Shown in pieces: positions 5,549 through 22,323 of a stretch of 36,266 nucleotides of DNA. A model generated the notes under the pieces. The model ran no database searches and had not been told where the DNA came from. It saw nothing but the letters and a program-made list of their open reading frames with translations. Source of the stretch: Actinobacteria bacterium 13_1_20CM_4_69_9 (GTDB lineage: Bacteria > Actinomycetota > Thermoleophilia > Gaiellales > Gaiellaceae); the NCBI GenBank assembly GCA_001920085.1, contig MNJC01000051.1, forward strand, positions 1-36,266. The letters run 5' to 3'. Made by a program: the position numbers and the translations under genes. Numbering within the stretch: the stretch's first letter is position 1; each line of letters begins with the position of its first letter.

Positions 5549-5899
5549 GTGAAATACATGCTGCTGGTCTGCTGGGACGCGGAGAGGATGAACGCGCGGG
5601 AAGAGCCTCGACCGGGCGACGCACGCGACCACGAGGGCTTCCCCTGGCTGAACGACCTGCAGGCGCGCGGGAAGTGGGTGACCGGCGACCAGCTCGCGCC
5701 ACCGCGGCGCGCGCGATCCGTCCGGGTGCGCGACGGGAAGAGGCTCGTCACCGACGGCCCGTTCGCCGAGACGAAGGAGCTCGTCGGCGGCTTCGACATC
5801 ATCGAGGCGGCGAGCCTGGACGAGGCGGTCGAGATCGCCGGAGGACATCCTGTGGCCGAGGTCGGAACGATCGAGGTGAGACCGTTCTGGGGCCAGTGA
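5549..5899 (+). CDS. YCII-related / DGPF domain protein
   Basis: MKYMLLVCWD...VTDGPFAETKELVGGFDIIEAASLDEAVEIAGGHP...GTIEVRPFW; ggaagg RBS upstream. Confidence 0.92.
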   Translation: MKYMLLVCWDAERMNAREEPRPGDARDHEGFPWLNDLQARGKWVTGDQLAPPRRARSVRVRDGKRLVTDGPFAETKELVGGFDIIEAASLDEAVEIAGGHPVAEVGTIEVRPFWGQ

Positions 5900-5969: not shown

Positions 5970-6725
5970 AGTTGAACCGCCGGACCGATAGGAGGGCGGC
6001 GGCCCACCTTCCGTCGTTCCGGCGGTTCAGCGACGGGGCAGTCTTCCCTCCCCTGGACCCGTGAACGCAACCTATGGCCGGGCGACGCCCGTGCCTATGG
6101 TCGTTTGGGCAGTTTGCTCGCCGGGGCGACGCCCAGCTGGCGACAGCTACTACCCTGGAAGCAGACGGTTTCGGGGGTACGCCGCTGTCCCCGGGAACCG
6201 TTCCGTGAGCCGGGAGGAGACGGGTTGGGCCGCCAACCCGGGCTACCGCCCGGCTCACTTCCAACTGTAGGCGTGCGAAAGCGCGTGTTCGTCCGGCCTA
6301 TACCGGAGCTAGACGAAAGGCTATAGCGGGGCAGGGCTCGCCCTCGTAGTGTCGCGGCACCGTCAACGTGGGACCGAGCCGCCGGTGCCGCCATCAGACT
6401 GCGGTGGGCCGCCACCGCACTGCGCCCGGCGGTTCGGTTTCATCGCTCGAAAGGCCGGCGCGCGCGGGCAAACCCTCTGGCCGCAGATTGCTCACCCGCG
6501 CAACGCCGTTGAAGACGCTAGATGCTGCGGTTGTCGATGCGCAATGGGTCGACCGGCCCATCTTCGGGGTCTCGAAGGCCCGGTTTCAGGGCGTCTCGCG
6601 GGGACAACCGCCAGTGCAAGCTCCGGCACCGATTCCGCGTCTTGTTGGATAGGGGGAGGCCCCCGGGGGAAAACGCGCCTCTAGCGGCCTAGAAGCGCGG
6701 GGTTCACGGAGGCCACCCCCTTTTT
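5970..6725 (+). ncRNA. Candidate large structured non-coding RNA, family unknown
   Basis: No credible ORF; dense perfect helices: 5973-5984/6018-6029 (12 bp), 6205-6214/6249-6258 (10 bp) enclosing 6221-6228/6233-6240 (8 bp), 6354-6362/6383-6391 (9 bp), 6400-6407/6412-6419 (8 bp), 6462-6468/6495-6501 (7 bp), 6527-6535/6603-6611 (9 bp) enclosing a multiloop; GAAA and GCGA loops; ends near a ggggt...acccc stem plus T-run (6699-6725). Confidence 0.7.
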
Positions 6726-6773: not shown

Positions 6774-7679
6774 TTACGTGGTCGGGTCGGCCCCGGAGGT
6801 GCGGAGGAAGTCGATCAGCAGTTGGTTGACGCGTCCAGCCTCGTCGTGATGCACCCAGTGCGACGCATCGGCCAGGCGCTCGACGCGGTCGAGGTTCGGC
6901 ACGTCGTCGTGCTCGGGCTCGGCGAGGTCCGAGCCGAGGTACGAATCGCGCTCCCCCCAGATCACCAGTGTCGGCGCCGAGATCGGGCGAAGCTTTGCTG
7001 CGGCTTCCTTCTGGGACTGTCTCACGGAGGCGCGGTAGTAGTTGATCATTCCGGCCGCCGCCCCTTCCTGCGACCACGCCTCGACATAGCGGTCGATTTC
7101 CTCCGGGGTGTAAGGCGGGCTCGCGTCGTGCAGGAAGTGCCGGAAGAAGTGCCAGTCTCTGGCGGGCACGATCTCCTCGGGCAGTCCCGGTGTTGCAAAG
7201 AAGAAGAAGTACCAGGACTTCCGAAGCTGGCTCGGGTGCTTGAGTCCCTCTGAGAGCTTCCGCGGATGGGCCGCGTTGAGGATGGCGAGCCGGTCGACCA
7301 CCTCGGGGTGGTTCATCGCGACGGTCCAGGCGATCGATCCGCCCCAGTCGTGACCGACCAACTGGGCGGACTCGGCACCGAGCTCCCGGATGAAGCCGCG
7401 GATGTCGTCGGCGAGCAGGTCGACGCCGTAGGCCTCGAAGCCCTCGGGCTTCGAGGACAGGTTGTAGCCACGTGTATCGGGGGCGACCACCCGAAAACCG
7501 GCCTCCGCGAGCGGCGCGATTTGTCGCCGCCAACCGAACCAGAACTCCGGGAAGCCGTGCAGCAGAACGACCAGCGGCCCTTCACCGGCCTCGACGTAAT
7601 GCAAGGTCTGATCGCCGACCTCGGCGTAGCCCTCCCGAAGCTCGATCCCGACGTCAGCGAGCAGGCTGGTGGTGGCCAT
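6774..7679 (-). CDS. Alpha/beta hydrolase (epoxide hydrolase / haloacid dehalogenase-like subgroup)
   Basis: VVLLHGFPEFWFGWRRQI...APDTRGYNLSSKP...LVGHDWGGSIAW...DASHWVHHDE. Confidence 0.92.
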   Translation of the reverse strand: MATTSLLADVGIELREGYAEVGDQTLHYVEAGEGPLVVLLHGFPEFWFGWRRQIAPLAEAGFRVVAPDTRGYNLSSKPEGFEAYGVDLLADDIRGFIRELGAESAQLVGHDWGGSIAWTVAMNHPEVVDRLAILNAAHPRKLSEGLKHPSQLRKSWYFFFFATPGLPEEIVPARDWHFFRHFLHDASPPYTPEEIDRYVEAWSQEGAAAGMINYYRASVRQSQKEAAAKLRPISAPTLVIWGERDSYLGSDLAEPEHDDVPNLDRVERLADASHWVHHDEAGRVNQLLIDFLRTSGADPTT

Positions 7680-22139: not shown

Positions 22140-22323
22140 GCGTGGTTGCTCCCGGGTTAGGTGTGACTGGGCGTAACGAATTGTAGGGAGCGCCGGTGCC
22201 GGTTCCAAAGATGGGCCGTTCGGCCTATTGGAAAGGGAACCCCGACTCGCTAGCCTCAACCCACTGGGCGATGCGAACCGCGGTGCGTTCCTGGCCTTGC
22301 ATTCCGCGGTGAGCACTAGGACG

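Follow-up and report, generated by a model that had tools for sequence, protein, structure and literature searches.

A few-copy mosaic of structured palindromic modules, mostly between convergent genes, in a soil actinobacterial genus

Positions 5970-6725 of the 36,266-nucleotide stretch of actinobacterial DNA analyzed here (the window) contain an array of palindromic hairpins built around two conserved modules. These modules recur elsewhere in the genus, keep their structure through compensated changes, carry opposite strand signatures, lie between genes, and are patchily present. Tentatively, and with a probability that we place just short of even, we propose that the region is a mosaic, limited to one genus and to few copies, whose structured palindromic modules act as RNA at the ends of transcripts. 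In this proposal, long palindromic hairpins with a common GCCG/CGGC tetraloop and two convergent modules would together form a mosaic element, whose modules would lie in the 3' ends of transcripts entering from both sides and fold as RNA. The folded modules would terminate or protect these transcript ends and hold the convergent transcripts apart, while the array would evolve as BIME arrays do, losing, gaining and reordering its hairpins. Such a transcript-end mosaic would account for most of our observations. The array is a structured mosaic element of low copy number from a soil actinobacterial lineage that has received little study, and with its strand-specific pairing changes one can address whether selection maintains palindromic mosaics at the RNA or the DNA level.

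Architecture of the intergenic array

The 756-nt region separates a YCII-domain gene on its left (5549-5899, plus strand; PF03795, E = 1.6e-18) from a convergent alpha/beta hydrolase gene on its right (6774-7679, minus strand; PF00561, E = 1.6e-33). An initial annotation from sequence had found no credible protein here, and we agree that the region is non-coding. The best ortholog pair comprises one locus each from the window genome (G000, contig C5) and a congener (G001, contig C82); substitutions between the two fall evenly on the three codon phases (47/48/46) and indels break the frame, so that protein coding can be rejected. The alignment of these orthologs spans 660 columns with 79% identity and shows no codon periodicity. 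All 11 of the annotated helices that we checked exist, eight of them perfect and three with one non-Watson-Crick position, which is a G.U pair in helices 6536-6540/6591-6595 and 6544-6550/6555-6561; the GAAA (6277-6280) and GCGA (6140-6143) tetranucleotides are likewise where they had been placed. The helix at 6354-6362/6383-6391 is present too, but its bases can also enter a longer, competing hairpin (6376-6435) with relatives elsewhere.

The two cores and three other palindromes follow a common design: an outer stem of 10-12 bp leads through internal loops and an inner stem to a GCCG tetraloop (CGGC on the other strand). Unit length is 50-62 nt in the eight type I units that we folded. Type I hairpins have the apex GGTGG-GCCG-CCACC and type II hairpins TCTG-GCCG-CAGA, while type III is a short palindrome (ATGGGYCGACCGGCCCAT) located after core 2. 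The three palindromes around the modules lie at 5973-6029, 6376-6435 and 6651-6721. The first, type I hairpin a, has a 12-bp outer stem and a loop that reads CGGC on the plus and GCCG on the minus strand; it folds with z = -6.4 on plus and -5.6 on minus, and is matched on the minus strand by our hairpin model R3 (E = 2.0e-12). The second, type I hairpin c, carries the GGTGG-GCCG-CCACC core on the plus strand, and the third is a long interrupted hairpin with a TAGCGGCCTA apex. Besides the two cores, the array holds copies of a single type in either orientation, and each locus has its own order and number of hairpins: C5 reads I-, I+, I+, II-, II+, C82 reads I-, I+, II-, II+, and two loci of a third species (G006) read II-, I+, III+. 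Elsewhere in the window, positions 22205-22235 hold a further palindrome resembling hairpin III (TTCCAAAGATGGGCCGTTCGGCCTATTGGAA).

The proposed promoter, TTGCGG-N17-TCTAAC, is weak: its two hexamers agree with the consensus at no more than 3/6 and 4/6 bases, and our scan found no sigma-70-like site. The hairpin before a T-run does exist, as the interrupted hairpin at 6651-6721 with TTTTT at 6721-6725, and is terminator-like on the plus strand, although a simple terminator scan of the region returned no match. Counting against a role at transcript ends, a strong T-run is missing from the end of both modules: terminator-like features are confined to 6651-6721 and, in weaker form, hairpin III.

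Folding and strand signatures

The region folds strongly on both strands: -406.9 kcal/mol (z = -6.0) on plus and -394.9 kcal/mol (z = -5.5) on minus, against 20 dinucleotide shuffles each. Set against 160 windows of 400 nt drawn at random from this genome, whose excess averages -0.57 kcal/100 nt (sd 1.69, minimum -5.35), the region has an excess of -7.4, -6.2 and -3.5 kcal/100 nt along the plus strand and -3.9, -3.9 and -5.1 along the minus strand, placing the left two thirds on plus beyond all 160 windows. A high fold z over a long intergenic region can nevertheless stem from opposite-strand modules rather than from one giant RNA.

Module 1 (core 1; 6164-6261, plus strand) comprises hairpin A (6165-6201) and the type I hairpin B (6205-6258), which has a GCCG loop. 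It is 87% identical to its G001 copy and 86% to that at C5, and a covariance-model search of 103 genomes of the family gained one clear divergent copy, in G006 (E = 3.8e-5). With this relative included, eight of 35 pairs have changed on both sides with pairing kept (shuffle mean 2.6; reached in 0 of 500 shuffles). Column-shuffle folding gives z = -7.0 on plus versus -3.2 on the reverse complement, and G.U outnumber A.C cells 9:1 on plus; when the structure is derived on the opposite strand, this excess disappears (1:1). At the G006 copy on contig C140 (L077, 5060-5160), the type I hairpin could take part in two alternative, attenuator-like folds, since its inner portion and a stretch downstream of it (GTGAAGGTGGCGGCCTAC) are almost complementary.

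Module 2 (core 2; 6456-6562, minus strand) consists of an alpha hairpin (6456-6508), the invariant motif TAGCGT (6517-6522) and hairpin III (6543-6562). In the alpha hairpin, which has a CGGC loop on the minus strand, 100% of cells pair as standard on that strand across 21 pairs and four copies. TAGCGT lies about 8 nt upstream of the alpha stem in the alignment of these four copies and is absent in G006. Hairpin III has four compensated pairs, with GGG/CCC in some loci replaced by CAC/GTG in others. G.U and A.C cells number 15:0 on minus, an excess again lost when the structure is derived on the opposite strand (3:2). Taken alone, hairpin III pairs better on the strand opposite alpha, where it has a pyrimidine tail and resembles a weak terminator.

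Type I hairpins show the same kind of compensation, with two-sided changes in eight of 20 pairs among five sequences (0 of 500 shuffles). Compensatory covariation in homologs, on which the initial annotation had made its reading depend, is thus seen in both module 1 and type I hairpins. As these statistics rest on five or fewer sequences per alignment, they are modest, and we regard the signals as good rather than overwhelming. Chance palindromes in GC-rich intergenic DNA are a very improbable explanation: very high G+C does lift background pairing, but the compensatory changes, the shuffle and genome-sample tests and the homologous copies in other species refute it.

On this sequence evidence module 1 behaves as a plus-strand and module 2 as a minus-strand structure, and the two point at each other. 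Column-shuffle folding of the C5/C82 alignment likewise assigns the left part to plus and a middle block to minus, and per-hairpin folding agrees with the wobble-based split of the two modules. At the G006 loci on contigs C132 and C151 both hairpins prefer one common strand, while at C116 hairpin strand preference is reversed, which speaks against the transcript-end reading. A mutational bias between strands could account for some of this signature; signs that flip within 200 nt of a single locus it would explain only if convergent transcription were its cause.

These signatures bear directly on the idea of a single large ornate RNA of about 750 nt read from the plus strand, which we consider improbable. 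The whole-region fold, the T5 tail after the last hairpin and the full-length C5/C82 alignment, which folds better than its shuffles on plus (z = -6.1), all fit such an RNA. The right-hand third, however, carries a minus-strand signature, the promoter is weak, and loci share only two short cores at variable spacing and differ in hairpin order. Because of the minus-strand module, the shuffled hairpin order and the unconserved DNA between cores, a single long plus-strand RNA is an inadequate description. The initial proposal of a ~750-nt structured non-coding RNA thus stands as to non-coding, covarying structure outside known families, and is unsupported as to one ornate RNA of that length with its own promoter. 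Its statement that the region matches no common RNA class is borne out by Rfam 15, in which the window and seven related loci reach no family's gathering score; at E up to 5 nothing is credible, and matches with low E lie far below cut-off.

Copies, distribution and rival readings

Related copies occur at six loci in two other species of the genus and at C5, the second copy that a DNA search found in the window genome; neighbors differ, and the loci are non-orthologous to that in the window. In G001 the DNA search found copies on C82 and C121/C123 and a partial copy on C78, while in G006 the loci are C140, C132, C151 and C116, the last three added by the hairpin model and C116 only weakly (E = 0.5). 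Between the window and C5/C82, only core 1 (6164-6261) and core 2 (6453-6525) are alignable, in conserved order; their spacing among copies is 193, 266 and 495 nt, and flanks are not conserved between loci. Copies lie mostly between convergent genes. Two congeners have the orthologous YCII gene without adjacent hairpins of this kind, and in G009 synteny around the hydrolase ortholog is broken at the site.

The element is confined to three species of one genus, as far as searched, on the combined results of DNA searches, a GTDB pattern scan, and covariance and hairpin models. Across 85,462 GTDB species, the exact core-2 pattern matches the G001 assembly only (VAXO01, a soil MAG). A search of 50,697 phage records was negative, the hits from two IMG/VR pattern scans were all chance matches in coding DNA, and a single 39-nt plasmid match is attributed to chance. 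Deep GCCG/CGGC-loop hairpins in a 534-kb sample of the genome are limited to the window and C5, and R3 at E below 0.01 detects only these two loci in G000, a count that rests on a 58% complete genome; a genome-wide dispersed REP is rejected on these grounds. At E below 0.05, R3 finds one to three loci each in G001 and G006. We dropped a simple multi-copy count for G001, as its contigs C82 and C123/C121, 96-97% identical, seem to be two strain versions of a single tRNA-Pro locus. Between this tRNA-Pro and the element, about 1.6 kb present in G000 (L010, 2702-4301) is absent in G001 (L011, 436-461).

Differing genomic positions suggest that the modules may be mobile. A stronger version, which we judge unlikely, is that they are non-autonomous mobile DNA, whose single-stranded hairpins are recognized by a Y1 (RAYT-like) transposase and whose structure serves transposition rather than an RNA. 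It would explain the palindromes of alternating orientation in intergenic, convergent settings, as in REP/BIME (PMC3733652, PMC2817692), and Y1_Tnp genes are common in the genus (37, in nine of ten genomes). The changing positions fit as well, as does one module 2 copy abutting a truncated integrase by a tRNA-Gln. Yet the hairpins flank none of the 12 Y1_Tnp loci examined, and no link to RAYT was found in this test; there is only a handful of copies, neither an insertion junction nor a target duplication was found at them, and opposite strand signatures inside one locus are not predicted. The copy in question (G001, C78; L012, 7421-7955) lies against the integrase (PF00589) and looks as though it had inserted into the 5' part of that gene or taken its place.

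Independent small structured RNAs with their own promoters are a less favored but appreciable possibility. One would be a plus-strand RNA at about 6164-6261 and the other a minus-strand RNA comprising III, TAGCG and alpha (with or without beta), acting in trans or as scaffolds, possibly by kissing of their complementary GCCG and CGGC loops. Structure conservation is strand-specific, as such RNAs would require, and the order III - alpha - beta is kept on one strand at C132 and C151 of G006 (68% identity across 357 aligned columns); the hairpins at C5 and C82 follow a matching order. At C151, moreover, no gene on the strand of module 2 ends near it: the module and a slipin-like gene are divergently oriented, and upstream on the module's own strand there is no known gene. 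This placement is at odds with a simple 3'-UTR role and leaves room for independent small RNAs. Against them stand the lack of a promoter in our scan of the region, the absence of the beta hairpin from the window copy, the unconserved flanks and spacing between loci, and a distribution limited to three species. A distinctly unlikely and more specific idea is that of genus-specific pairs of convergent structured RNAs, with modular hairpins and mosaic spread, in which kissing between the complementary loops would separate convergent transcripts or provide a scaffold. We retain transcript-end modules as the preferred reading, in which the array would be transcribed and would terminate transcripts or protect their 3' ends.

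Relation to known systems

Intrinsic terminators between convergent genes resemble the array in hairpin 6651-6721 with its T5 tail and in hairpin III with its pyrimidine tail; the array is far longer and clustered, its loop is conserved, and paralogous copies lie by unrelated genes. Integron attC sites are also imperfect palindromes of about 60 nt that keep their shape while sequence varies, but inspection shows neither R' (GTTRRRY) nor R'' (RYYYAAC) boxes, on which ground attC sites are rejected, and no integron integrase is seen beside the array. The likeness to GOLLD, ROOL, HEARO and OLE that the initial annotation had drawn is backed neither by sequence nor by covariance models, as judged with Rfam 15 for the window and its seven related loci. 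GOLLD and ROOL form RNA nanocages of prophages and phages (PMC12286853); like them, the array is large, hairpin-rich, non-coding and sometimes near tRNA genes, and kissing loops are conceivable, but it has two opposite-strand modules in place of a single conserved architecture and is absent from the phage records searched.

REP/BIME elements are intergenic palindromes, mainly between convergent or unidirectional genes, that combine a few hairpin types mosaically in both orientations, are probably transcribed and are thought partly to act as RNA (PMC3733652, PMC2817692). Units here are 50-68 nt versus 20-40, copies number a handful versus more than 100 per genome, the GCCG tetraloop is conserved, and no flanking RAYT gene was found at the 12 Y1_Tnp loci. 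As to a GTAG or CGTC tag beside the stem, TAGCGT precedes alpha in four copies and not in G006, and a tag of the CGTC type is doubtful. Because unit length, copy number and transposase association fail, we do not assign the array to REP/BIME elements, of which the GTAG and CGTC families are examples; what it shares with them are extragenic palindromes in alternating orientation, arranged as mosaics of a few types and mostly between convergent genes.
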